Shown here: positions 1,084 to 63,804 of the stretch, piece by piece
Position numbering within the stretch: position 1 is the stretch's first letter
Layout of the letters: each line of letters opens with the position of its first letter
Assembly (NCBI GenBank): GCA_016795505.1
Contig: JAEUHH010000085.1
Coordinates: forward strand, 1 to 64,000
Direction of reading: 5' to 3'
Length of the DNA: 64,000 nucleotides
Source of the DNA: Verrucomicrobiales bacterium
Lineage (GTDB): Bacteria > Verrucomicrobiota > Verrucomicrobiia > Verrucomicrobiales > DEV007
The notes under the pieces: generated by a model
Database searches by the model: none
The model's input: the letters and a program-made list of their open reading frames with translations, nothing else
Told to the model about the DNA's origin: nothing
Made by a program: the position numbers and the translations under genes

Positions 1084-1095
1084 TTGGCCGACCAA

Positions 1096-1160
1096 ACCCT
1101 CTTGCTCCGCCGATCCAACCGAGTCTGGTCTCCGGACCAACCCGGTTGGATCGCGGGCCG
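1096..1160 (+). repeat. 22-bp-period dispersed repeat, copy A (three units, intergenic)
   Basis: Units begin at 1096, 1118 and 1140, exactly 22 bp apart. The first starts ACCCTCTT and ends CGATCCA, the second is diverged, and the third carries GGTTGGATCG. The copy lies between the stop of the repeat protein and the kinase gene. It belongs to the family also found at 12736, 25551, 27474, 42635, 49573 and 63254. Confidence 0.75.
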
Positions 1161-8762: not shown

Positions 8763-11700
8763 ATGCTGGGCAACGCCATGGAAAACTCCGCCCCACTGCA
8801 CGATCCCGGTCTCTACGACCTCTTTGTTTCCTACTCCACCAAGGACAACGTGCCGCCGCCGGGAGAATCCATCGGCTGGGTCTATGCCTTCATCCACCGC
8901 CTCCGGGAGTTGGCCCCTCCCTTCACCGACGCCCAACTCCATACCACCGGTGACTCCGATCTGTTTCCCGACTGGGATACCTTCTATGCACCGGATGAAA
9001 TCCAGCCCGGCCACTTGTGGGAGACCCGGCTCCGCACCGCCGTCGCCCAAAGCCGCGTCCTCATCGCTTGTCTCTCGCCGAACTACTGGCAAAGCAAATG
9101 GTGCCGCATCGAGTGGGAGACTTATCTGGAAAACGAAAGTGCCCGCGGCCTCGCCAATCAGGTTGGCGGCATCACTCCTATCTACTTCGTCACCGCTCCC
9201 GGCGTCCGCAGCGCCGATATTGTCGCCGCAGCGCCCGATTGGGCCTCAGACCTGTTGGAAAGCCGCCAGGTGCGCCTGCTGGAACTGACGGAACACGGCG
9301 ACGACCTCGGGCGCCAGCTTGCCGCCCTGCGGGACGATCCCGCCATGGCCGAGCGGGTCGGCCGGATCGCCCAGCGCGTCGCCCAGCAGATCAGCCACGC
9401 CCGCCGCGCCGAACGCATCGTCATGGGCAATATCGCCCTCGGCACCGAGACCTTCGTCGGCCGCGAGACGGAGCTGGCTGACCTCGAAAAAAAGCTCTTC
9501 GGTACCGGCGCCCTCAGCGTCATCACCGCCCTCCATGGCATTGGAGGCCAGGGAAAAACCGCCCTCGCCCTCAGGTATGGTCAGAATCTCCGCACTCGCT
9601 ATTCTGGCGGTTGCTGGCAGGCTGGGGCAGAGGGTGCCCGCGAATTGATCCCATTGGTTGCTTCCCTGCGCGACGCGCTGGAGTTGCCGCCCATCGCCAC
9701 CGAAGACGACACCGACACCGCTCTGCGCGTGTTGCAGGACCTCTACCGCCGCGCTCATGATCCCGACTTTGACCGCGCTCCGGGCGATCCTGCCGCCGCC
9801 CTGCTGTTGCTGGATAACGTCGAACACGCCGACCTGCTGGGCCGGCACCAGCGGGAGCACCTGTACCGCGCCATGCGCGAGGCCACCGGCGATCCCGGCT
9901 TTGGCTGGCTACACCTCCTCGCCACCACCCGGCTGGAGAGCCACGAACTGGCCTCCCTCGACCCCGCCCAGATCGTGGCGGTCGATGCCCTCTCAGCCGA
10001 GAAAGCCCTCGAACTCTGGCGGCGCATCAGTGGCCCGCTTTCCGATTCGGAACTCGAAGCCGCCCGCGAGATCATCCGCCTGCTGGAGCGCCACACGCTC
10101 AGTGTCGAAGTCGCCGTGCGCCACATCCGCCGCACGCTGGGCGAGACCGCTGTCACCTACCTGGCCCGGCTCCGCCATGCCTTGTCTGCCGCGCCCGACC
10201 GCTTGGCCCGGTTGTTGGGCGGCCAGCAGGCTGGACAAGGCGGCGACCTGCCCAGCTACGCCCATCCCCTCGCCGCCACCCTAGGGTTTACGTTCACTCA
10301 TCTCGCGGAGGAGGACCCCGCCGCCGCCGCCGTGCTCCATTTCGCCGCCCACTTTCCTGCCGAGGCCGTGCCGTTGCCGTGGCTGCGGATCCTCGCCGGG
10401 CAGGCCCACCCGGCGCTGCTCGACGACCCCGAGGCCGTGCCCGGCCTTCCGGATGCCTGGGACCGGGTCCTGCTCCGGCTCGGTGAGAGCCTCGCCCTGC
10501 TCACCCCGGCCGATGCCGCCCAGCCCGAGATCGGCCGTCTCCACCGCCTCGCCGCTGCCTGTTTGCGGTTTCATGCCCAAGAAGAGGGAGGGGATGCCCC
10601 ACGTCTTGCTGCTGTGGAGCAGTTCATCGAGTTCCGCTGCACTCTGGCGGAACACAATCCCCAAGGCGGCCTGCTGGCTTGGGAACGGACGGTGCTGCTC
10701 GCGGATTTGCCTCTGCGGATGGGTCAGAAGAACTGCTCCGCAGAAATGGCCCAAAACGGTTTGCTTTTGGGCCAGATTCTTGCCTCCTACGCCGACCTCG
10801 CCACGGCCCGGCGCCTGACGGAGCAGGCCCACGGCGTGTTAACCCGCCTTGCCGCCAGCGACCCCGCCAACGCCGCGTGGCAGCGCGATCTGTCGGTGTC
10901 GCTGGAAAAGCTCGGCGATCTCGCCGTCGCCCAGGGCGATGGGGCCAGCGCGGCGCGGCGCTTCTCCGAGAGCCTCGCCATCCGCGAGCGCCTCGCCGCC
11001 AGCGACCCCGCCAACGCCGCGTGGCAGCGCGATCTGGCGGTCTCGCTCAACAAACTCGGCGACCTCGCCGTCGCCCAGGGCGATCTGACCGGCGCAGCGC
11101 GGTATTTCGCCCAGGACCTTGCCATCGCCGAGCGCCTCGCCGCCAGCGACCCCGCCAACGCCGCGTGGCAGCGCGATCTGTATGTGTCGCTGATCAAGCT
11201 CGGCGATCTCGCCGTCGCCCAGGGCGATGGGGCCGGCGCGGCGCGGCGCTTCACCGAGAGCCTCGCCATCGCCGAGCGCCTCGCCGCCAGCGACCCCGCC
11301 AACGACGGGTGGCAGCGCGATCTGTCGGTGTCGCTGGACCGGCTCGGCGATCTCGCCGTCGCCCAGGGCGATGGGGCCGGCGCGGCGCGGCGCTTCACCG
11401 AGAGCCTCGCCATCCGCGAGCGCCTCGCCGCCAGCGACCCCGCCAACGCCGCGTGGCAGCGCGATCTGTCGGTGTCGCTCAACAAGCTCGGCGAACTCGC
11501 CGTCGCCCAGGGCGATGGGGCCGGCGCGGCACAGCGCTTCACCGAGAGCCACGCCATCTTCGAGCGCATCGCCGCCATCGACCCCGCCAACGCCGCGTGG
11601 CAGCGCGATCTGTCGGTGTCGCTGAACAAGCTCGGCGATCTCGCCGTCGCCCAGGGCGATGGGGCCGGCGCGGCGAAGTATTTCGCCAAAGACCTCGCTA

Positions 11701-11945
11701 TCGCCGAGCGTCTCGCCGCCAGCGACCCCGCCAACGCCGAGTGGCAGCGCGATCTGGCGGTGTCGCACTTCAAGCTCTACTCCGTCGCCCAGGAAAACGG
11801 CGACGACGCGGCGGCTGTCGCCGCCCTGCGCGCCTGTTTCGCCGTGCTGGAGGGCATGAAACAGCGCGGGATGCATCTGGACCCGCCGATGGCCCAATTG
11901 CATGAGCAATTGGCAGGGATGTTCGCCGGTGGGGACGAGGAGTGA
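8763..11945 (+). CDS. TIR domain - STAND-type NTPase - TPR repeat protein (candidate immune receptor)
   Basis: Numbered from ATG 8763 (ATG 8778 is an alternative; the frame is open further upstream but without TIR homology), the 1060-residue protein has three parts. A TIR domain (YDLFVSY at 18-24; SKWCRIEW near 111-118, with Glu117 in the place of the catalytic NADase glutamate) is followed by a P-loop NTPase with Walker A GIGGQGKT at 259-266 and Walker B LLLLDNV near 350. From about residue 694 come seven 48-residue TPR-like repeats. This is the effector/switch/sensor layout of STAND immune receptors, where ligand binding by the repeats triggers the TIR enzyme to deplete NAD. No accessory defence genes are next to it. 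A defence role is inferred. Confidence 0.85.
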   Translation: MLGNAMENSAPLHDPGLYDLFVSYSTKDNVPPPGESIGWVYAFIHRLRELAPPFTDAQLHTTGDSDLFPDWDTFYAPDEIQPGHLWETRLRTAVAQSRVLIACLSPNYWQSKWCRIEWETYLENESARGLANQVGGITPIYFVTAPGVRSADIVAAAPDWASDLLESRQVRLLELTEHGDDLGRQLAALRDDPAMAERVGRIAQRVAQQISHARRAERIVMGNIALGTETFVGRETELADLEKKLFGTGALSVITALHGIGGQGKTALALRYGQNLRTRYSGGCWQAGAEGARELIPLVASLRDALELPPIATEDDTDTALRVLQDLYRRAHDPDFDRAPGDPAAALLLLDNVEHADLLGRHQREHLYRAMREATGDPGFGWLHLLATTRLESHELASLDPAQIVAVDALSAEKALELWRRISGPLSDSELEAAREIIRLLERHTLSVEVAVRHIRRTLGETAVTYLARLRHALSAAPDRLARLLGGQQAGQGGDLPSYAHPLAATLGFTFTHLAEEDPAAAAVLHFAAHFPAEAVPLPWLRILAGQAHPALLDDPEAVPGLPDAWDRVLLRLGESLALLTPADAAQPEIGRLHRLAAACLRFHAQEEGGDAPRLAAVEQFIEFRCTLAEHNPQGGLLAWERTVLLADLPLRMGQKNCSAEMAQNGLLLGQILASYADLATARRLTEQAHGVLTRLAASDPANAAWQRDLSVSLEKLGDLAVAQGDGASAARRFSESLAIRERLAASDPANAAWQRDLAVSLNKLGDLAVAQGDLTGAARYFAQDLAIAERLAASDPANAAWQRDLYVSLIKLGDLAVAQGDGAGAARRFTESLAIAERLAASDPANDGWQRDLSVSLDRLGDLAVAQGDGAGAARRFTESLAIRERLAASDPANAAWQRDLSVSLNKLGELAVAQGDGAGAAQRFTESHAIFERIAAIDPANAAWQRDLSVSLNKLGDLAVAQGDGAGAAKYFAKDLAIAERLAASDPANAEWQRDLAVSHFKLYSVAQENGDDAAAVAALRACFAVLEGMKQRGMHLDPPMAQLHEQLAGMFAGGDEE
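10843..11850 (+). repeat. Seven 144-bp tandem repeats inside the TIR-NTPase-TPR gene
   Basis: Units begin at 10843, 10987, 11131, 11275, 11419, 11563 and 11707. Each encodes 48 residues starting (E/T)RLAASDPAN and containing WQRDL and KLGDLAVAQGD. Six units are nearly identical at the DNA level, while the seventh diverges after WQRDLAVS and caps the array. The near identity indicates recent duplication or gene conversion. Confidence 0.9.
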
Positions 11946-12641: not shown

Positions 12642-12735
12642 GGATCAATTTCATTTGCTCTCATGACTTCGTTCCCTGCCGGGAACCCGCACGGCCCAAG
12701 ATTCCGGCCTCCGTGCTCTCCGTGCCTCCGTGGTG

Positions 12736-12806
12736 ACCCTCTTCCCTCTCCGATCCAACCCTCTTTGATCGGAGACCAGACCCTCTTTGATCGGAAATCA
12801 GACCCC
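12736..12806 (+). repeat. 22-bp-period dispersed repeat, copy B (best-preserved, three full units)
   Basis: Units begin at 12736, 12758 and 12780, and a partial fourth begins at 12802. Units two and three differ only near position 17 onward and read ACCCTCTTTGATCGGA then GACCAG or AATCAG. This intergenic array is the clearest copy of the family and defines its register. Confidence 0.85.
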
Positions 12807-13115: not shown

Positions 13116-13425
13116 CCGTTTTTTAGGCCTCCTCCGGCCGGCGGAGGGCCGGAAAAAGATTTTTTAGGGCTCCTCCCGCCGTCGGAGGGCTGGAAAATGA
13201 TTTTCTAGGCCTCCTCCCGCCGGCGGAAGGCCGGAAAAAGATTTTCTAGGCCTCCTCCCGTCGGCGGAAGGCCGGAAAAAGATTTTTTAGGCCTCCTCCC
13301 GCCGGCGGAAGGCTGGAAAAAGATTTTTTAGGCCTCCTCCCGCCGGCGGAAGGCCGGAAAAAGATTTTTTAGGCCTCCTCCGGCCGGCGGAGGGCTGGAA
13401 AATGTTTTTTTAGGGTTCCTCCGTG
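13116..13425. repeat. 41-bp tandem repeat array, about seven units
   Basis: The AGGCCTCC or AGGGCTCC/AGGGTTCC landmark occurs at 13125, 13166, 13207, 13248, 13289, 13330, 13371 and 13412, exactly 41 bp apart. Each unit has a GC-rich palindromic core (CCGCCGGCGG, flanked by GGCCT and AAGGCC) between an A-run and a T-run, so each can form a terminator-like hairpin on either strand. Units differ by point changes only. There are no spacers. Confidence 0.92.
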
Positions 13426-24201: not shown

Positions 24202-26427
24202 TTACGGCGCCTCCGCCGCCGCGGACGCCTTCCGTTCTGCCGAAAAACCTCCGCCAAGCGCGAGATGCAGATCCACCCGATTGTCCAGGCGCTCCCTGCG
24301 CAGCGCGATCAGCCGCGACCGTTGCAGGAATTGGCGATCCTGCGCCGTCAGCAGCGTCAGGATGTCGCCGGTCCCAGCCACGAACTCCGCCACCGCACTG
24401 TCGTAGGCTTCGCCGGCCAGGTCCGCCGCCTTCCGCAGCGACTCCTCGCGCGCCGCCAGCGACGTCTCGGCCGTCAAGGCATTCTCGACCTCGCCAAACG
24501 CGGTCAGCGCCGCCTTTTCAAATTCCGCCGCCGCCTGCTGGATGCCCGCTTTCCTGAGCACCACGCCCTCGCGCAGCCGGCCGCCCGTCAGCAGGGGCTG
24601 CGCGGCATTCCCCGCCAGACTCCAGATGCTGAAGTTGCTGTCCAGCAAGTCCTCGATCTGCTCTGACGACGTGCCCGTGCTGCCGCTCAGCGAGATCGCC
24701 GGCAGCATGGCCCGTTTTGCCTCGACCAGCCGGCGATCCGCCGCTGCCAGCCGACGCTCGGCCGCGTGCAAGTCCGGCCGACGATCCAGCAGATCGCCCG
24801 GCATCCCGGCCGGCGGGCGACCCGGCATCTTTGGCAGACTGCCCCGCCCCTCGACCGCGCCTGACGGATACCGCCCCAGCAACAGCTCGATCTGCCGCGC
24901 AGCCCGAGTCACCGCCTCACGCCGGGCTTCCAGATTCGCCCGGGCCGTTTCAATGTCCACCATCGAGAGCCGCAGTTGCGCCGCCTGATTCCGCGCCGCG
25001 TCCGCGATGCCCGCCTCGAACCGGTCGCGCACCGCCTTCTCCGTCTGTTGGAAAACCGTCACCGTCCGCTCCGCCAGAGCGAGTTGCTCCCGCGCCTCCT
25101 GCAGAGCGAACCACGACTTCGCCACCTGCCCCGCGATCGACAGCTCCGCCCCCGCCCGATCCGCCTCGCTGGCTTGATACTCCGAGAGCAAGGCCCCCTG
25201 CCCCGCCCGAATCCGGCCCCACAGGTCGATCTCCCAGCTCAGGTCGATGGACAGGCCGAACTCGTTGTTCAGATTCGTGAACACCCCGCCGCCATCGCCA
25301 CCACCGGTATCGGGACCGATCGGAAAGCCAATGAAATTCCGCTTCTGCCGGCTGCCCCGGGCCAGACCGTTCGCCTGCGGATACAGATCCGCCCCCGCGA
25401 TGCGGGCATTGGCCCCGGCCGCCTCCAGCCGGGCCGCCGCCACCTTCAGATCCTTGTTTCCTGACAGGGCCTCGCTCACCAGCGCCGTCAGCCGCTCGTC
25501 GCCAAAGCCACGCACCCACTCGTGATCCGCCAGCAGCACCGCAGCGGGGGCTGATTTCCGATCAGACAGGGTATCATCTCCGATCGAACCCTGTTTCATC
25601 GCAAATCCCTCCGGCACCTCGCCGAGATCCGCCAGCCCCGCGGCATCCGGCGGCGGCGTGGCCGCACATCCCACCGCTCCCAAAGCCAGCAACAAGCCCG
25701 CCAGCGCCGGCATCACCGGGGAACGGCCTTTCTTCCGGGCGACCGCCGGCGCTTTCAGACCACCCGCGGCATAGGCGATGAGCTGGGACATCGTCTCAGC
25801 CGGATCGGACACCCGGCAGCGCCCCGCCGAGAGCCACTCCAGACGGTCGCCCTGGGTCAGCGCCTGGAGCAGCACACCGACAGTGAAATGCAGCCGCCAA
25901 AAGACATCGGCTTCGTTCAAATGAGGCAGCGCCCGCCCCAGCGCCGCGACGAACCGCTCCGTCACCTCGCGGAATACCCGGCGCATCATTTCGGGCGAAT
26001 GATCCTGCTTTTCGCTTAAACAGGCCCCCGCCAATCGCAAAAATCGCGGTGCCGTCTCACTCGAGCCCGGCAGATCGATCATCACAGGTCGGAATGCCGC
26101 GTCGAGCACGCCCTCCACCGTGACCGGCGTGCCGGCCCGCTCCGCCGAGGCCTCCAGGGCGTCCAGCAGGCGCAGCCGCTGCTCATTGATCGGCCCCAGC
26201 ACCCGGCTGTAGACCTCCATCACCAGCGCCTCCCGCGAACCGAAGTGGTAATTCACCGCCGCCAGATTCACCCCCGCCATGCCTGTGATCTGCCGCAGCG
26301 AGACGCCCTGAAAACCATGCTCGGCGAAAAGGTCCTCCGCCGCGTCGAGGATGCGTTCCCGCGTCTCCGAAGCACTCGGAGCAGCAGCGGACGGCGCGGG
26401 CGCCGGATGATGGGAGGCGGGAGTCAT
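24202..26427 (-). CDS. TetR-family regulator in frame with NodT-type outer membrane lipoprotein
   Basis: One open frame encodes two proteins that belong in different compartments. Residues 1-230 are a TetR/AcrR regulator (ILDAAEDLFAEHGFQGVSL helix-turn-helix, AAVNYHFGSREAL). After a 20-residue link comes a lipoprotein signal (MPALAGLLLALGAVGC, cysteine of the lipobox at about residue 254) and a NodT/TolC-like outer membrane factor to the end. An ATG at 25713 directly precedes the lipoprotein signal, with a purine-rich GAAGAAAGG upstream, and would give a 503-residue outer membrane protein of normal size. So two products may be made, or the TetR stop was lost. ATG 26427 was preferred over the TTG at 26451. 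Confidence 0.8.
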   Translation of the reverse strand: MTPASHHPAPAPSAAAPSASETRERILDAAEDLFAEHGFQGVSLRQITGMAGVNLAAVNYHFGSREALVMEVYSRVLGPINEQRLRLLDALEASAERAGTPVTVEGVLDAAFRPVMIDLPGSSETAPRFLRLAGACLSEKQDHSPEMMRRVFREVTERFVAALGRALPHLNEADVFWRLHFTVGVLLQALTQGDRLEWLSAGRCRVSDPAETMSQLIAYAAGGLKAPAVARKKGRSPVMPALAGLLLALGAVGCAATPPPDAAGLADLGEVPEGFAMKQGSIGDDTLSDRKSAPAAVLLADHEWVRGFGDERLTALVSEALSGNKDLKVAAARLEAAGANARIAGADLYPQANGLARGSRQKRNFIGFPIGPDTGGGDGGGVFTNLNNEFGLSIDLSWEIDLWGRIRAGQGALLSEYQASEADRAGAELSIAGQVAKSWFALQEAREQLALAERTVTVFQQTEKAVRDRFEAGIADAARNQAAQLRLSMVDIETARANLEARREAVTRAARQIELLLGRYPSGAVEGRGSLPKMPGRPPAGMPGDLLDRRPDLHAAERRLAAADRRLVEAKRAMLPAISLSGSTGTSSEQIEDLLDSNFSIWSLAGNAAQPLLTGGRLREGVVLRKAGIQQAAAEFEKAALTAFGEVENALTAETSLAAREESLRKAADLAGEAYDSAVAEFVAGTGDILTLLTAQDRQFLQRSRLIALRRERLDNRVDLHLALGGGFSAERKASAAAEAP
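25551..25608. repeat. 22-bp-period dispersed repeat, copy C (inside the outer membrane factor)
   Basis: On the minus strand this reads GATCGGAGATGAT followed by ACCCTGTCTGATCGGA and AATCAG, the same unit as copy B with a few changes. It encodes KQGSIGDDTLSDRKS, lying between the lipobox and the first helix of the outer membrane factor, in a linker. Confidence 0.8.
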
Positions 26428-26620: not shown

Positions 26621-27154
26621 GTGACCGAGTCCGATCCATCCGCCCACGCGCCGTTTTTGCGGCTCTATGTCGAGCATGAGCCTGCCTTGCGCGGGTTCGT
26701 GCGATCGCTGGTGCCGACCTTGCAGGACGCGCAGGATGTGATGCAGGAGGTCGCGCTGGCGCTGTGGAAACGCTTCCACACCCTCAGTGCTCCGGAGGAC
26801 TTCCGGCGCTGGGCTTTCGGGGTGGCCAGGCTGGAGTCGTTGGAGTTCCTGCGGAAACGCCGGCGCGACCGGCATGTCTTCGGTGATGAGTTGTTCGACC
26901 TGCTCGCGGCGGAGGCGGAGTCGGCGGCGGACGATCTGGCGGAGGAACGGCGCGCGCTGGACCTCTGCCTGCAAAAGCTGCCGGAGGAGCAACGCGACCT
27001 GGTGCAGGGCTGCTACGCGCCGGGAACGCGCATCGACGAATGGGCGGCCCGCATGGGACGCACGGCGATGGCGGTCTACAAATCGCTGCATCGCATCCGC
27101 ACGGTGCTGATCGACTGTGCAAAAAAACAACTCGTCCGGGAGGGCTTTTCATGA
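26621..27154 (+). CDS. ECF RNA polymerase sigma factor (Rhodopirellula/Verrucomicrobium type)
   Basis: A 177-residue sigma-70 factor with region 2 (RLYVEHEPALRGFVRSL, DAQDVMQEVALALWKRF) and region 4 (LQKLPEEQRDLVQGCYAPG, WAARMGRTAMAVYKSLHRIR). GTG 26621 gives the usual length for this family; an upstream ATG near 26562 would add a non-homologous leader. Its stop overlaps the start of the FecR-like gene by 4 bp (ATGA). In this phylum such sigma/FecR pairs control nearby exported and polysaccharide-degradation genes. Confidence 0.88.
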   Translation: MTESDPSAHAPFLRLYVEHEPALRGFVRSLVPTLQDAQDVMQEVALALWKRFHTLSAPEDFRRWAFGVARLESLEFLRKRRRDRHVFGDELFDLLAAEAESAADDLAEERRALDLCLQKLPEEQRDLVQGCYAPGTRIDEWAARMGRTAMAVYKSLHRIRTVLIDCAKKQLVREGFS

Positions 27155-28473
27155 ACACGGAGAACGGCGACGACGAAGACAGGGACCTGATGGCCCGCTA
27201 TCTCGCGGGGATGGCGGATGCGGACGCGGTGGCACGGCTGGAGTCGCGCCTCACGGCGGATCCCTCGCTGCGGCGGACGTTTTTGAGTCATGCGAACGTG
27301 GACGCGGCGCTGGCGGCTTCGGTGCGTCCGGCACCGGCGATCCTGACAAAACCGAAAAACAGCGGCGTTACGAGACGCTGGATGCCGGCTCTGGCCGCGG
27401 CGGCGGCGGTGGTGATCTCGGCGGGCTGGCTGTGGCAGGCGCGATCGGGGGTGGAGGTGCGGATTCTGGAGCAACCCTCTTTGATCGCCGATGCGACCCT
27501 GTTGGATCGGACGACGGCAGCGGGCTGGGCGGTGGGTTCGGTGAAACGACTGCGGGAAATCGAGCTGGGCGAGGGATCGCTGCGGGTCGGCCTGCCGAGC
27601 GGGGTGGTGCTGGATCTCGTCGCGCCGGTGAAGGTGCATTTGATCGACGCGATGCGGGTGCGGGTGGCGGCGGGCGCGGTGACGGCGGATGCGGGTCCGG
27701 CCGGGGCGGGTTTCACCCTCGACACGCCGGACACGCAGGTGGTCGATCTGGGCACGCGCTTCGGTGTGAATGTGCTCGGGGGCGGGGAGACGGATGTGGC
27801 GGTCTTTGATGGAAAAGTGGAACTGCGGGAATCAGGCCGCGCCCCGGCGGTGCTCGACGCGGGTGACTCGGTGCGGGTGGGCGGGCTGGCCCGGATCCGT
27901 CGTCAAGCGCTGATCTCGACGCGGGGCGAGTCGGCCTTCATTCTGGAACCCGCGCCATCCGACGCGCTGGTGACGGGGATCGAGGACAACATCGCGGAAA
28001 GCGGATTCCACAGTTTCTACACGATCCAGCGCGGGGCGATGCGGCCCGGGGTGCGGCCATATTCGACGCTGGGCAAGCCGCGCTGGCAGGCGGCGGAGGG
28101 CGGGACCTTCCCGGAGGAGTTGCTCGGGGCGGACGTGATCGGCACCTTCTCGGCGGATCGTCATGAGCCGTCTCTGGAACTGACGCTGACGGTCTCGCGG
28201 CCTTGTGCGGTGTATGTGATGCTCGATGCGCGGGGCGAGGTGCCGGATTGGGTGCGGCAGGATTTTTCGGACACGGGCTGGCGATTGCGGGGCGGGCCGT
28301 GGGCGGACAATCCGGTGGTGCGCGGCATGACGGCGGATGAGAAAGGCGAGATCCACTTGGACTACGCGGTGTGGAAGAAGGAGGTCGATGCCGCGGGTCC
28401 GGTGGTGCTGGGTCCGCCTTTCCCCGAGGGCAACGCGACGCGCCGGGCCATGTACGGGGTGGCGGTGAAGTGA
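27151..28473 (+). CDS. FecR-like membrane protein, partner of the ECF sigma factor
   Basis: The 440-residue protein has an N-terminal cytoplasmic segment resembling anti-sigma domains (LMARYLAGMADADAVARLESRLTADPSLRRTFL), a transmembrane helix near residues 74-92 (WMPALAAAAAVVISAGWLW), and a periplasmic FecR domain (GFTLDTPDTQVVDLGTRFGV, VAVFDGKVELRES). GGGAGGG lies 6 bp before the ATG and the start overlaps the sigma stop. The segment SLIADATLLDRTT just outside the membrane is encoded by a 22-bp-period repeat. The C-terminal ~150 residues are a separate unidentified domain. Confidence 0.85.
   Translation: MNTENGDDEDRDLMARYLAGMADADAVARLESRLTADPSLRRTFLSHANVDAALAASVRPAPAILTKPKNSGVTRRWMPALAAAAAVVISAGWLWQARSGVEVRILEQPSLIADATLLDRTTAAGWAVGSVKRLREIELGEGSLRVGLPSGVVLDLVAPVKVHLIDAMRVRVAAGAVTADAGPAGAGFTLDTPDTQVVDLGTRFGVNVLGGGETDVAVFDGKVELRESGRAPAVLDAGDSVRVGGLARIRRQALISTRGESAFILEPAPSDALVTGIEDNIAESGFHSFYTIQRGAMRPGVRPYSTLGKPRWQAAEGGTFPEELLGADVIGTFSADRHEPSLELTLTVSRPCAVYVMLDARGEVPDWVRQDFSDTGWRLRGGPWADNPVVRGMTADEKGEIHLDYAVWKKEVDAAGPVVLGPPFPEGNATRRAMYGVAVK
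27474..27517 (+). repeat. 22-bp-period dispersed repeat, copy D (inside the FecR-like gene)
   Basis: ACCCTCTTTGATCGCCGATG starts at 27474 and ACCCTGTTGGATCGGA at 27496, 22 bp apart. It encodes PSLIADATLLDR. The first unit is almost identical to that of copy F in the ferredoxin gene. Confidence 0.82.
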
Positions 28474-40373: not shown

Positions 40374-40875
40374 CACCGGGGCCGCCTGCGGCGGAAATCC
40401 GAAATCCGAAGCTCTAAATCCGAAACAAATTCAAATCTTCGAATCTCCCAGTTTTCAAACCTCGGTTCGCCCATCGCCTACTTCCCCTCAACTCTGCGCC
40501 TCTGCGCCTCTGCGCCTCTGCGCCTCTGCGCCTCTGCGTGAGAAATCCCTTCGCCGGACCCGAAACAGGAGCCGTTTCCCAATCCAATCATCAGATCCCG
40601 CAGTCCTCTTTTCCCCGCCGCCCAGTCAAGCACCAGGGCCGCCTGCGGCGGAAATCCGAAATCCGAAGCTCTGAATCCGAAACAAATTCAAATCTTCGAA
40701 TCTCCCAATTTTCAAACCTCGGTTCGCCCATCGCCCATCGCCAACTTCCCCTCACCTCTGCGCCTCTGCGCCTCTGCGCGAGAAATCCCTTCGCCGGACC
40801 CGAAACAAGAGCCGTTTCCCAATCCAATCTTCCTATCCCGCAATCCTCCATGTCCGCGCCGTCCAGTCAAGCCCT
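40374..40875. repeat. Duplicated ~250-bp direct repeat with an 8-bp minisatellite
   Basis: Copy 1 (from 40374) and copy 2 (from 40631) are nearly identical and 257 bp apart; both begin with a GCCGCCTGCGGC palindrome and pass through CCTCGGTTCGCCCATCGCC to AGGAGCC/AAGAGCC and GTCAAGC. Within each lies an 8-bp repeat (TCTGCGCC): six units at 40493-40540 in copy 1 and three in copy 2. The block has no gene and lies between two minus-strand genes. Confidence 0.88.
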
Positions 40876-40895: not shown

Positions 40896-42623
40896 TTATT
40901 CTCCCAATTTCAGATAAGCCTCCGCAAACCAGCGACCCACATCGAGCGTGCCTTTGGTGTCGTAGTGGGCGGCATTGATCACCGGCGCGGCCGCGGTGTC
41001 GACGTAAACCGCCAGCGGATCGGCGGCATCGACCTGGCGCTGCGCCTCGACGATGGCCGGCATGTGGGCATTTTTTCCGAGGCCAAACTGGGTGTTTACC
41101 GCAATGAGCGCCTTCAGGTCAGGCGCACCGAGATCCTCCCGCAGCGAGGCGATCAGTTTCGTCAGTCGCTCCGCATATTTCGGCGCGTCGTTGGCATTGG
41201 CATCGCTCTCGCCCTGGACCCAGAGCAGCGCCCGCGGCCGCAAGGTCACCCCGGCGGCTTTGGCCTGCTCCGTCGCGAGCCGGAACTCCTCCAGCAGCGC
41301 CCGATAGCACGATCCCGACGGCCCCTCTGCCTCCGGGTCCCAATCCTGCGCGATCCCCGTGCCGCTGAAGGCCGCTTTCACGATGGCCAGCCGTGTCTCT
41401 GGCCGCTTCGCCAGCAGAGTCCGGGCGAAGCCGATCTCCGGCCCGAAACCTCCCTCCTTTTGGGCAAAATTCCCATACTGTCGCGGCGGCCCGCCCTTCA
41501 CCTTTTCCATCGGCTGCCCAAGCGGCTGCGGGCGCAGCGTGGTCCAGACTCCGCCACTGATCGTGTCGTGGCGGTCCGGTGGCGGATCACCGGCGCGAAA
41601 CCAGAAATAGACGCCGGCATCGGCCGGATCGGCCGGCAACTCCGTCGGCTTGGCATCGAAACCGACCGCGTTCGATTGGCCGGCCACGATGACCAGGTCA
41701 ACCTCGCCCGGCCGCAGCGCCGCCGCCTCGCTCTCGCGCCAGCGCCGCCACTCCAGTCCCGGGCGATCCACCCGGAAACTCGCGATGCCCGTGTAGTCCA
41801 CCTCCGTCACATACACAGTGCGTCCGTCGGGACCGCCGAAGCACAGGTTGGTGGGATGCTTGCCCAGCAACTCGATCTCGCGCAGGATCTCGCCCTTCGG
41901 CGACAGTTTCACCACCGTGCCCTTGCCGTGGCGGGTGATGTAGAGATTCCCGTCGACGTCGCAACGCATCCCGTCGAATCCATGGTCGGGGAACTCCTTC
42001 ACCAGCCACTTGTCCGACAGGGTGCCATCGGCGTTGAGGTTGAAGCCCCAGACCTTCCGCTGGACACTCTCATTGACGTAGAGCGTCTTACCATCCGGGC
42101 TCACCTCGATGCCATTGGTCGTGCCGAGTCCCTCGGCGAGCAGGGTGACCTTGCCGTCGGTGCCGATGCGCCAGATTCGGCCCGTGCCGGCTTTCCAATC
42201 CGGATCGCTGGCGTAGAGCGTGCCGTCGGGGCCGATGGCGAGATCGTTCGGCTGGCTCATCGCCGGCTCGTGGGCAAAGACCGTGACCGTCTTTGTCGCC
42301 GGATCGATCCTCAGCACGTTGTGCCCGGTGTAGTCCGCCACATACATCAGGCCGGCGCGATCAAAGCGGATGCCGTTGCCTGTGCTGCCCTCGGGCAGGG
42401 TCACGAACAGGGAGGTCTCCCCGTCCGGCTTCACCTGTCCGATGGTGCCCTGCCGGCCGAAATTCACCGCATAGATGTTCCCCTCCCGATCCGTCGCCGG
42501 ACCTTCTACGCCTTTCGTAAATTCTTCCGGCTCAGTCAGCGGCACCGCCTCCCAGAGCTTCTCATCCTGTGCCCAGGCTGGAACGACGAGGAGGAACAAC
42601 AGCGCGACGGTGGACGGTTTCAT
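40896..42623 (-). CDS. SMP-30/gluconolactonase-like propeller fused to a GQSN-type carbohydrate esterase
   Basis: A 575-residue secreted protein (signal peptide MKPSTVALLFLLVVPAWAQ). Residues ~20-310 form a six-bladed SMP-30/gluconolactonase propeller (NGIRFDRAGLMYVADYTGHNV, NDLAIGPDGTLYASDPDW, GTTNGIEVSPDGKTLYV). After a short linker, residues ~330-575 are a SGNH-like domain of the sialate O-acetylesterase/DUF303 class: VIVAGQSNAVG holds the nucleophilic serine, and WVQGESDAN and HYDTKGTL supply later blocks. The pair suggests successive action on an esterified sugar acid, but this is inferred. The frame is open to 42713, but ATG 42623 opens the signal peptide. Confidence 0.83.
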   Translation of the reverse strand: MKPSTVALLFLLVVPAWAQDEKLWEAVPLTEPEEFTKGVEGPATDREGNIYAVNFGRQGTIGQVKPDGETSLFVTLPEGSTGNGIRFDRAGLMYVADYTGHNVLRIDPATKTVTVFAHEPAMSQPNDLAIGPDGTLYASDPDWKAGTGRIWRIGTDGKVTLLAEGLGTTNGIEVSPDGKTLYVNESVQRKVWGFNLNADGTLSDKWLVKEFPDHGFDGMRCDVDGNLYITRHGKGTVVKLSPKGEILREIELLGKHPTNLCFGGPDGRTVYVTEVDYTGIASFRVDRPGLEWRRWRESEAAALRPGEVDLVIVAGQSNAVGFDAKPTELPADPADAGVYFWFRAGDPPPDRHDTISGGVWTTLRPQPLGQPMEKVKGGPPRQYGNFAQKEGGFGPEIGFARTLLAKRPETRLAIVKAAFSGTGIAQDWDPEAEGPSGSCYRALLEEFRLATEQAKAAGVTLRPRALLWVQGESDANANDAPKYAERLTKLIASLREDLGAPDLKALIAVNTQFGLGKNAHMPAIVEAQRQVDAADPLAVYVDTAAAPVINAAHYDTKGTLDVGRWFAEAYLKLGE

Positions 42624-42634
42624 GGGCGAGTTTT

Positions 42635-42685
42635 CGATGAGACAGGGTTGGATCGGAAAAGCAACAGGGTTGGATCGGAAAAGCC
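42635..42685. repeat. 22-bp-period dispersed repeat, copy E (intergenic)
   Basis: CAGGGTTGGATCGGAAAAG occurs twice, with CAGGGT at 42643 and 42665, 22 bp apart. It fills the space between the SDR stop (42691) and the SMP-30/esterase start (42623). Confidence 0.85.
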
Positions 42686-42690
42686 GGAGT

Positions 42691-43473
42691 TTACCACAGG
42701 GTATAACCGCCATCGATGACCAAAGACGCGCCGGTCATGTAGCGCGAGGCGTCGCTGGCGAGATACACCGCCAGAGGACCGATGTCCCCGGGATCGCCGA
42801 ATTTCCCCATCGGGATGGCTTTCAGGAATTCGTCGATTACCTGGGGATGCTCGCGCGACCAACGCTGGTTCGGCTCGGTGAAAAAGCCGCCGGGGCAGAT
42901 GGCATTCACCGTCACACCGTGCGGCGCCCAGTCGGCAGCCGTGGCTCGGGTAAACTGGATCACCGCGGCCTTCGCCGTCTCGTAGCTGCGCCCGCCGATG
43001 CCACGATTGGCGACCAGACCGGAGATCGAGGCAATGTTGATCACCCGCCCGCCGCTCCCCCGCCGCACCATCTCGCCGCCGATCAACTTGGTGCAGAGAA
43101 AGGTGCTGGTGAGATTGAGGTCGAGGATGCGCTGCCAGTCGGCCAGCGTTTGGTCCGGCACCGGCACATTGACCAGCCGGCCGCCGACGTTGTTGATCAG
43201 GATGTCGATTGGTCCATGCCGGTCGAGCGCCTCGCGGCAGGCGGCCTCGCACTGCTCGGGATCTCCGACGTCGGCGTTGATGGTCACGGCTTCCCGGCCC
43301 AGCGCCCGGATCTCGCCGGCGGTGCGGTCGAGGCTTTCGGCGTCGCGGCCGGCGAGAATCACATCGGCTCCGGCCTCCGCGATCGCCAGCGCCATCTCGC
43401 GACCGAGCCCCCGGCTGCCGCCAGTGATGAACAGACGGCGGCCGGCGAGAGAAAATCGGTCGAAAAGGCTCAT
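42691..43473 (-). CDS. Short-chain dehydrogenase/reductase
   Basis: A 260-residue classical SDR from ATG 43473. It has the cofactor loop TGGSRGLG, NNVGG, the catalytic serine in INIASISG, and YETAK (YxxxK). RDAES near the end of the second strand indicates NADP preference. The sequence resembles gluconate 5-dehydrogenase and related sugar/polyol dehydrogenases. It is upstream of the SMP-30/esterase gene on the same strand, which supports a role in sugar acid metabolism. Confidence 0.88.
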   Translation of the reverse strand: MSLFDRFSLAGRRLFITGGSRGLGREMALAIAEAGADVILAGRDAESLDRTAGEIRALGREAVTINADVGDPEQCEAACREALDRHGPIDILINNVGGRLVNVPVPDQTLADWQRILDLNLTSTFLCTKLIGGEMVRRGSGGRVINIASISGLVANRGIGGRSYETAKAAVIQFTRATAADWAPHGVTVNAICPGGFFTEPNQRWSREHPQVIDEFLKAIPMGKFGDPGDIGPLAVYLASDASRYMTGASLVIDGGYTLW

Positions 43474-43632
43474 GGGCTCGGAAAGGGCCCCCCATTTCAG
43501 CCCATTCACCCGCTCCTGGCAAGCCCGCGCCCGCTCCCGCATCGCGGGACCCGCCTACCCCACCGCCTTTGAAATCGCACCGACCAAGGTGGCGCAATCG
43601 CGGCTTTCCTTCGAACTTCCGTAATTTTCAGA

Positions 43633-49280: not shown

Positions 49281-50177
49281 ATGAAGACCGAGACCCTGCC
49301 CTTCCAAGTCGTCCTCTACGAAGGTGACGGCGCCCAACCCCTCGCCCCCGGAGATCGCTTTGCCGTATTGAGCCTGCTCCTCGACAAAGGCTATGCCGTG
49401 CGGCGAGTCGCCGGCCCCGGACAGACGACTGCCCCGGACCTCCCCTCGCCCGCCATCCCGCTCATCGTCATCGGCGATTTCGGCGGAGCCGCCCCCGTGC
49501 TCGAGGATGCCGCCGGCCGGGTCTCCATCGCCACCCACGACATCGGCGGTCTGGCTCCCGATGCGGTGCTCGATCTGATCGAACAGGGTCGGATCGGCGA
49601 TCAAAGAGGGTTGAATCAGCCCGGCGCCCCCGGCATGTGGAAGCCATGGTTCCCGGTGATCGATTACGACCGCTGCACGAACTGCATGCAGTGCCTCAGC
49701 TTTTGCCTGTTCGATGTTTACGGCGTGGATGAGAAACAGAAAATCCAGGTCAAGAATCAGGACAACTGCAAGACCAACTGCCCCGCCTGCTCCCGGGTCT
49801 GCCCCGAGGTGGCCATCATGTTCCCGAAGTATGCCGCCGGCCCGATCAATGGCGACGTGGTCAACCAGGCCGACGTGCAGCGTGAGAAGATGAAGGTGGA
49901 CATCAGTTCCCTGCTCGGCGGCGACATTTACTCCCGGCTGCGCGACCGCAGTGATGCGGCCAAGTCGCGTTTTTCCAAAGAACGCAGCCCCGACAAAGCC
50001 CTGGAGGAGCGGAAAAAGTGCCTGGTGAAACTCCAGCAGAGCGGCATCATACCGGCCGAGGTGCTCGCCGAGTTGGACTTGTCGTCACTGCCATCGCCCG
50101 AGGAAATCCAACGCCGGGCTGCCGAAGCCAACGCCCGGGCCCAGGCCGCCCGCGAGGCAGCCGCGGGAATGGCTTGA
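49281..50177 (+). CDS. Double [4Fe-4S] ferredoxin protein with N-terminal domain
   Basis: The 298-residue protein has an N-terminal domain of about 95 residues (VIGDFGGAAPVLED, VSIATHDIGG), then a linker encoded by a 22-bp-period repeat, then ferredoxin motifs CTNCMQCLSFC (Cys132, 135, 138, 142) and CKTNCPACSRVC (163, 167, 170, 174). The C-terminal ~90 residues are helical and charged, with SPDKALEERKKCLVKLQQ. It is coupled to the small HdrA-like gene by 8 bp. An electron-transfer role for the radical SAM enzyme is likely. Confidence 0.85.
   Translation: MKTETLPFQVVLYEGDGAQPLAPGDRFAVLSLLLDKGYAVRRVAGPGQTTAPDLPSPAIPLIVIGDFGGAAPVLEDAAGRVSIATHDIGGLAPDAVLDLIEQGRIGDQRGLNQPGAPGMWKPWFPVIDYDRCTNCMQCLSFCLFDVYGVDEKQKIQVKNQDNCKTNCPACSRVCPEVAIMFPKYAAGPINGDVVNQADVQREKMKVDISSLLGGDIYSRLRDRSDAAKSRFSKERSPDKALEERKKCLVKLQQSGIIPAEVLAELDLSSLPSPEEIQRRAAEANARAQAAREAAAGMA
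49573..49620. repeat. 22-bp-period dispersed repeat, copy F (inside the ferredoxin gene)
   Basis: On the minus strand ACCCTCTTTGATCGCCGATC is followed 22 bp later by ACCCTGTTCGATCAG. It encodes LIEQGRIGDQRGLNQPG, in the linker between the N-terminal domain and the iron-sulfur domain. Confidence 0.82.
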
Positions 50178-62279: not shown

Positions 62280-63080
62280 GTGAATCCCGCATCACCGCAA
62301 AACTCCGCCTTGCCATCGGGGCGGACCCTTCGTTTACTCAGACCGGTGCGGACCTTGTTGACCAGCCTCGTCATTGCCATCCTCGGCGCGACGTTTTGCT
62401 TCTTTTTCTACATCCTGATCGCCCACGATTACCGCTGGGAGGCGGTGGTGCCGTATGCGGGCAATCTGTTTTCCGGCTGGGCGATGACTCTGGCTGTCTC
62501 GGCCGTCGCCCTGATTCTCAGCGTCCTCATCGGCGCCGGGCTCACCGTGGGGCAGCTCTCTCCCTCGCGTGTCGCCCGCTGGCTCGCCCGCGCCTACGTC
62601 GAACTGGTTCGCGGCACGCCCCTGCTCACTCAGATCCTCATCGGCTACTACCTCGTCGCCCCGGTCCTGCATTGGGAAAACAAATTCGGCGTCGGTGTGG
62701 TGATCCTGGCAGCCTTCGCCGGCGCCTATCTCAGCGAAATTTTTCGCGCCGGCATTCTGTCCATTCCCCGATCGCAATGGGAATCGGCCCGCGCCATCGG
62801 CCTCACCGGAGCCCAGACCTACCGCCACGTCGTGATCCCCCAGGCCATCCGCCGCGTCCTCCCGGCCACGGCCGGGCAATTTGCCAATCTGGTGAAAGAC
62901 TCCTCGCTGCTCTACGTCATCGGTCTGGGCGAGTTCACCATGCAGGCCCGCGAGGCCAATGCCCAGACCTACGCCACCTTCGAGAGCTACCTGCCGCTCG
63001 CGCTCGGCTACCTGGCCCTGACCCTGCCAATTTCCCTGATCAGCCGCTGGCTGGAGCACCGCACCCGCTATGAACATTGA
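62280..63080 (+). CDS. Amino acid ABC transporter permease
   Basis: The 266-residue HisM/GlnP-type permease has about five helices and VRGTPLLTQILIGYY plus the EAA-loop ESARAIGLTGAQTYRHVVIPQAIRRVLP. It starts at a GTG and overlaps the ATPase gene by 11 bp. Another GTG at 62346 could be the true start. Confidence 0.9.
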   Translation: MNPASPQNSALPSGRTLRLLRPVRTLLTSLVIAILGATFCFFFYILIAHDYRWEAVVPYAGNLFSGWAMTLAVSAVALILSVLIGAGLTVGQLSPSRVARWLARAYVELVRGTPLLTQILIGYYLVAPVLHWENKFGVGVVILAAFAGAYLSEIFRAGILSIPRSQWESARAIGLTGAQTYRHVVIPQAIRRVLPATAGQFANLVKDSSLLYVIGLGEFTMQAREANAQTYATFESYLPLALGYLALTLPISLISRWLEHRTRYEH

Positions 63081-63804
63081 ACTCCGCGGCCTCTCCCGGC
63101 GCTACGGCGCCACCCAGGCCCTGCGCGATGTCTCGCTGCGGGTCGGGAATGGCGTGCGCGTCCTCGCGCTGATTGGACCGTCGGGAGGGGGAAAATCGAC
63201 CCTGCTCCGCCTCATCGGCGGCCTGGAGGTGCCCGATGCCGGGGAGATCGAAATCGATCAGACCCTGTTGGATCGGAGAGAAGACCCTCTTCGATCGCAC
63301 CGCCGCCGGCTCGGCTTTCTGTTCCAGTCGTTCAATCTCTTCCCTCACCTCACGGCGCTGGAAAACATCGCCCTACCACTGGTCCACGTGCATGGCAAAT
63401 CCGCCGCCGAAGCTGACGAGACCGCGCGGGCCTGCCTGTCCCGCTTCCGCCTCGCCGACCATGCCGAGAAACACCCCGCCCAACTCTCCGGCGGCCAGCA
63501 GCAGCGGGTCGCCCTCGCCCGGGCACTCGCCCATCGTCCCCGGCTGCTGCTGCTCGACGAGCCGACCTCGGCCCTCGACCCGGAAATGACGGCCGAAGTG
63601 CTCGAAGTGATCGAAGAACTGTGCCGCGAGGGCCAGGAGATCATTCTTTCCACCCACGAGATGGGTTTTGCCCGCGCCGTGGCGGATGAAGTCGTCTTCC
63701 TGTCCGGCGGCCGGATTCTGGAAGCCGGCACCGCAGCCAAATTGTTCGACACCCCGCAAACAACGGAGGTGAAAGCATTCCTCAGCCGCGTGATGCGCTA
63801 CTGA
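63070..63804 (+). CDS. Amino acid ABC transporter ATP-binding protein
   Basis: 244 residues: Walker A GPSGGGKST, Q-loop FLFQSFNLFPHLTALENI, signature LSGGQQQRVALARALAH, Walker B LLLLDEPTSALDP, and H-loop STHEMGFA. The segment between Walker A and the Q-loop (IDQTLLDRREDPLRSHRR) is encoded by a 22-bp-period repeat but keeps the usual length. It completes the polar amino acid importer. Confidence 0.93.
   Translation: MNIELRGLSRRYGATQALRDVSLRVGNGVRVLALIGPSGGGKSTLLRLIGGLEVPDAGEIEIDQTLLDRREDPLRSHRRRLGFLFQSFNLFPHLTALENIALPLVHVHGKSAAEADETARACLSRFRLADHAEKHPAQLSGGQQQRVALARALAHRPRLLLLDEPTSALDPEMTAEVLEVIEELCREGQEIILSTHEMGFARAVADEVVFLSGGRILEAGTAAKLFDTPQTTEVKAFLSRVMRY
63254..63299 (+). repeat. 22-bp-period dispersed repeat, copy G (inside the ABC ATPase)
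   Basis: ACCCTGTTGGATCGGAGAG at 63262 and ACCCTCTTCGATCGCACC at 63284 are 22 bp apart. It encodes DQTLLDRREDPLRS in the variable surface region between Walker A and the Q-loop. Confidence 0.82.

Follow-up and report, generated by a model that had tools for sequence, protein, structure and literature searches.

What are the short repeats that recur, in units of 22 bp, in both the intergenic and the coding DNA of a Verrucomicrobiales bacterium? The question was raised by a stretch of 64,000 nucleotides (the window), which belongs to contig C56 of a genome (G000) assembled into 120 contigs with 6.55 Mb in all, and for which a preliminary description had claimed seven copies. All seven were found at the places given, and no strand is assigned to any of them. 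The array at 1088..1154 (three degenerate units, with a stop codon 3 bp before it) is intergenic, that at 12728..12794 (a weak unit followed by two strong units at 12750-12794) lies in a large intergenic region, and that at 42634..42678 (two units) fills the space separating gene 40896-42623 from gene 42691-43542. The remaining arrays, each of two units, are located within genes: at 25558..25602, with the cores in opposite orientation, in the TetR/OEP linker of gene 24202-26427; at 27466..27510 in a FecR-domain gene (27151-28473); at 49575..49619 in a gene for a 4Fe-4S (iron-sulfur) protein (49281-50177); and at 63254..63298 in an ABC transporter ATPase gene (63070-63804).

Anatomy of the unit and its 22-bp lattice

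The family extends over the whole genome. A strict two-unit pattern gave 124 matches against 0 for its reversed control, the core pair ACCCTSTT-N14-ACCCTSTT with at most one mismatch gave 427 against 1, and a 26-position profile at a threshold of at least 10 bits matched 399 times on the two strands together and never in its reversed form. Arrays were present on all six contigs sampled, at a density of approximately one per 8 to 10 kb. Within 864 kb of this genome, 199 units were assigned to 96 arrays, of which 70 were pairs, 15 consisted of three units, one of four and 10 of a single unit. Every internal step between neighbouring units in these arrays (103 of 103) was 22 bp, and the distances between same-strand units were solely 22 or 44 bp, in agreement with the exact step first described. 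When spacings from 10 to 44 were scanned, 98 arrays were detected at 22, 23 at 44 and between 0 and 4 at each other spacing. The preliminary description had allowed that the unit might prove no more frequent than in control sequence, or that the spacing might disappear with more copies; the genome-wide counts, the controls and the spacing scan gave the opposite result on both points.

In its general form, GAYYnn-AC(CCT)GT-nnRRTC, the unit represents an odd palindrome with an asymmetric core. Its form in this genome is TCCGATSNRAC-MSK-GTYNSATCGGA (199 units), with CCCTG or the complement CAGGG at the centre of 157 units. The two unit starts initially distinguished, ACCCT and its complement, were both found, but they represent one core (ACCCT / AGGGT) in two orientations. 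The core may face either direction inside one 22-bp lattice, opposite-strand offsets falling on the same lattice, and the orientations, of 70, were ++ in 26, -+ in 14, +- in 9 and -- in 8. Elements frequently start with TTTCC and finish with GGAAA. The palindromic units adjoin one another, two to four per array, without spacers, as expected if the array is not a CRISPR; the claim that it is not an insertion sequence likewise fits all data found.

Pairing across the palindrome was less than that predicted from independence. Symmetric variable positions were complementary less often than expected (11% against 49% for the core pair), the shortage of complementary pairs being observed at three variable arm positions as well as at the core, and the strongest associations across the element included no covarying arm pair. 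Hairpins are therefore not selected, and this lack of compensation indicates that the symmetry suits a dimer reading double-stranded DNA and not a folded strand. A hairpin or RNA element was rejected on the same absence of covariation and on the absence of any Rfam match.

The arrays are very probably DNA-binding sites. One 22-bp unit would form the site of one dimer, with symmetric arms flanking the asymmetric AC-CCT-GT core. With two or three units set two helical turns apart, neighbouring dimers would be located on the same face of the helix and could bind cooperatively. The same-face protein-binding array suggested in the preliminary description fits everything found, while the binding itself, together with its cooperativity and the role of the arrays, is what we infer from the sequence.

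Placement and mutual exclusion

Genes were called with a purpose-made hexamer-based gene caller (692 genes, about 90% coding). Of 88 arrays, 69 (78%) were intergenic or mostly so, compared with about 10% of the DNA, and 19 were fully within genes. Co-directional, divergent and convergent gaps were occupied roughly in proportion to their number, and within co-directional gaps the arrays were closer to the upstream stop codon than to the downstream start. On these gene calls, the arrays prefer intergenic DNA near gene ends, without preference for gene orientation.

This placement bears on the possibility that the arrays are operators of a global transcription regulator. Regulators typically have dimeric, palindromic operators that follow one another on a single face of the helix, and the paired palindromic units of the arrays resemble them. 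The arrays, however, avoid promoters in favour of the upstream stop codon and fill convergent gaps as often as these occur, and a regulon leaves unexplained both the sites deep in genes and the exclusion within 5 kb described below. Operators of this kind are thus considered improbable.

The spacing statistics cover 884 kb (13%) of the genome, in six contig stretches, and 400 kb of G096, a genome with a different dialect of the unit. In the former, 98 intervals had a mean of 8.2 kb and a CV of 0.52, against 0.96 at random and below all of 2000 random trials; 17 intervals were shorter than 5 kb, against 44.6 expected. Under stricter nulls, in which arrays of at least two units were used and the numbers of intergenic and coding sites were preserved (3000 trials), the CV was 0.59, whereas the two nulls never fell below 0.66 and 0.75; intervals shorter than 5 kb numbered 9, with 33 to 35 expected. 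The pair correlation rose from 0.10 below 2.5 kb to 0.34 between 2.5 and 5 kb and was near 1 at greater distances, indicating an exclusion without a period. Arrays repel one another below about 5 kb.

In G096, 21 arrays were detected in 400 kb, of which one or two of the weakest may be due to chance as judged from control spacings. The mean interval was 19.6 kb, no interval was shorter than 4 kb, and a CV as low as the observed 0.47 was never obtained in 5000 trials (P<1/5000). Even spacing was also observed, with weaker support from less data, in G001 (P 0.007) and G080 (P 0.035). The even spacing, as well as the codon conservation within genes and the lineage dialects described below, was beyond what the preliminary description could see.

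Conservation, dialects and mobility

The repeats had initially been taken as a dispersed element tolerating coding and intergenic positions alike; that such an element was inserted into both kinds of DNA does not fit the in-gene copies. The copies at 49575 and 63254 recur in G001, G002 and G003, where both cores are found at orthologous codons with the 22-bp distance kept and the codons align essentially gap-free. These two alignable copies are thus ungapped and ancestral, a third in-gene copy sits in a variable linker, and no recently duplicated copies were found. The conserved copies include the rare-looking codons AGA (in three of four species) and TTG. For five genes, the codons of unchanged residues were identical in 124 of 166 cases (75%) within arrays and in 1886 of 3482 (54%) outside, a difference taken as supporting evidence only, because the pairs are non-independent and three of the gene sets were found via arrays in both species; for the two genes found through the window alone, the corresponding values between this genome and its sisters were 42/60 and 649/1169.

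Turnover was observed as well. The array at 42634 is absent from the corresponding gap in G002 and G003, and in gene 24202-26427, where the window copy is located in a variable linker, G003 carries an array at a different position of the same gene. This mixture of conservation and turnover fits selection for a site in the neighbourhood rather than at one base.

Between lineages the core and the 22-bp step are fixed and the arms drift, the unit being GAYYCAAC-CCT-GTTGRRTC in the sister species of the same genus, GACTGTAC-CCT-GTACAGTC in G080 and GACTYAAC-CCT-GTTRAGTC in G096. Within the family, the core pair was detected in all four genomes of this genus, in both of g11 and in most of g2, where G080 showed the highest strict pair count (up to 597) and G021, G058, G063 and G071 showed zero. 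G000, G001, G003, G013, G080 and G096 are array-rich. Arrays occur in 3 of the 18 genera of one family, with practically none in the other genera, and among 384 genomes of the class stray matches alone were left outside the array-bearing genera. All the motif matches listed from a contig database belonged to uncultured Verrucomicrobiales/Verrucomicrobiia MAGs.

Where the flanks of stray core-pair matches could be read, in array-poor genera and in other families of the order, the matches proved to be integron attC-like repeats. At L191, L200, L201, L204, L205, L207 and L209 of array-poor Verrucomicrobiales, these repeats share the conserved loop ACCCTCTT-N14-ACCCTGTT; its mimicry of the core pair at 22 bp may reflect coincidence or common origin. 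For the arrays themselves an attC identity was rejected, since they are without the long imperfect palindrome ending in RYYYAAC/GTTRRRY. A viral or plasmid origin was also rejected, as no match was found in IMG/VR viral contigs or PLSDB plasmids.

Elements of the REP/BIME or REPIN type, miniature mobile elements spread by a Y1 (RAYT) transposase, have much in common with the arrays, both being short, near-palindromic, mostly extragenic, frequently near gene ends and present in hundreds of copies, with tandem groups of alternating orientation; in addition, 17 Y1_Tnp matches are present in this genome. Nevertheless, when 15 windows of roughly 3 kb at Y1 genes were read, about 4 contained arrays, which equals the background expectation. 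The terminal GTAG or CGTC tag is a feature of the class (PMC3733652), and neither tag was present in the profile of 70 elements with flanks. In further contrast to these elements, the arrays show no covariation, that is, no compensatory changes of a stem-loop, and they have an exact 22-bp lattice, an asymmetric core and mutual exclusion within about 5 kb. No sign of copying was detected among 86 arrays, for which the nearest-neighbour identity was 39.9/46 against 39.3 +- 0.25 for a shuffled-segment null, the maximum pairwise identity was equal to the null, and no pair was closer than shuffled segments allow. With recent copies absent and the in-gene orthologues ungapped, a mobile element of this type is very improbable.

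Target immunity produces short-range exclusion, and a mobile element with transposition immunity would also space its copies in the manner observed. The evidence against the REPIN type applies equally to such an element; moreover, these ends were not seen on any autonomous partner, and the in-gene copies are not insertions. We consider this explanation extremely unlikely. As a separate observation, several Y1-transposase matches are located at contig ends of this genome, for instance at C2:12-203, C33:6-161, C33:42935-43126 and C100:10-168, indicating that a multi-copy element probably breaks the assembly.

Chromosome organisation, DNA uptake and neighbouring features

With confidence evenly balanced, we propose that the repeats are chromosome-wide recognition sites of a putative dimeric, sequence-specific, double-strand DNA-binding protein, most likely architectural. 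The architectural role taken by itself, suggested by the pattern of sites, is put forward at slightly less than even confidence; it is preferred because the site is paired, palindromic, sparse, off promoters and indifferent to the direction of transcription. The arrays would act as spaced anchors or boundaries for chromosome segments of about 8 to 20 kb. If the sites divide the chromosome into segments, two nearby sites would be redundant and one would not be kept. Against the proposal as a whole, DNA uptake sequences are evenly spaced too, some array positions turn over between sister species, and no binder emerged from the genes adjoining arrays.

The binding sites of known chromosome organisers, MatP (matS), SlmA and Noc, resemble the arrays in being palindromic, with kilobase-scale spacing and a dimeric organiser, which for the arrays is putative. 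The 13-bp matS site is present in 23 repeats within one domain of 800 kb (PMC3330122). In contrast to matS, the arrays are located on all six contigs sampled and form tandem pairs, for which a MatP-like binder is not known. An autoregulated binder was sought by clustering the genes adjoining arrays in about 20 genomes, and no recurring DNA-binding family was obtained. An Lrp/AsnC gene beside a four-unit array was rejected as a candidate, being present in array-free genomes too and array-adjacent in two species only. More tentatively, the arrays may represent an undescribed chromosome-partitioning code, in which a lineage-specific putative protein would recognise paired 22-bp sites, selection would hold these at least about 5 kb apart along the entire chromosome and so partition it into segments of about 8-20 kb, and the binder and the dialect would co-evolve between genera.

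The strongest rival to the architectural role is self-recognition like that of DNA uptake sequences, in which a surface receptor would recognise the paired units in natural transformation, and biased uptake with recombination would enrich and disperse them. The uptake sequences known so far are short motifs that occur singly, about once per 1-2 kb, and most of them are not palindromes. Like the arrays, the DUS/USS of Neisseriaceae and Pasteurellaceae are found in hundreds of copies, both intergenic and coding, with bias to gene ends and with lineage dialects around a fixed core. Their even spacing is known (cited in PMC1939737), and PMC1939737, PMC2346458 and PMC3630211 describe it together with the hundreds of copies, the coding and intergenic copies, the gene-end bias and the dialects. 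Over-representation combined with even spacing, by which uptake sequences are recognised, was found for the arrays as well, and ComEC is encoded by most genomes of the family, including the present one. ComEC is, however, found just as well in relatives without arrays, for example G021 and G058, and the paired near-palindromic 22-bp units, one array per 8-20 kb, differ from DUS/USS, whose short motifs stand singly, roughly once per kb. On balance an uptake role appears unlikely, although less so than that of operators or mobile elements.

To our knowledge, chromosome-wide, evenly spaced sites under selection are rare in bacteria, those known being uptake sequences and a few nucleoid sites. The arrays would allow either chromosome domains or self-DNA recognition to be tested in a phylum for which there is as yet no understanding of either. 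Given the precise anatomy, the measurable exclusion distance, the dialects and the sister species with loss, the binder and its function should be findable by direct experiment.

Several other features were noted in the window. Gene 24202-26427 (minus strand) encodes a TetR-type regulator (TetR_N, TetR_C_30) fused to an outer-membrane efflux protein with two OEP stretches; this odd combination of a regulator and a TolC-like channel is retained in G001 and G003. A second dispersed repeat family, at 40390-40830, has two long copies made up of heptamers (GAAATCC) and octamers (CTCTGCGC), with many matches of 80-98% elsewhere in the genome. Gene 8763-11945 (plus strand) encodes a TIR-domain protein with TPR repeats, in which 6.4 near-identical coding repeats of 144 bp (10845-11766) could possibly form a variable recognition region. 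In the intergenic segment at 13119-13422 a 41-bp unit is present seven times; every copy forms an inverted repeat rich in G+C (CCGCCGGCGG) and has runs of T and of A.
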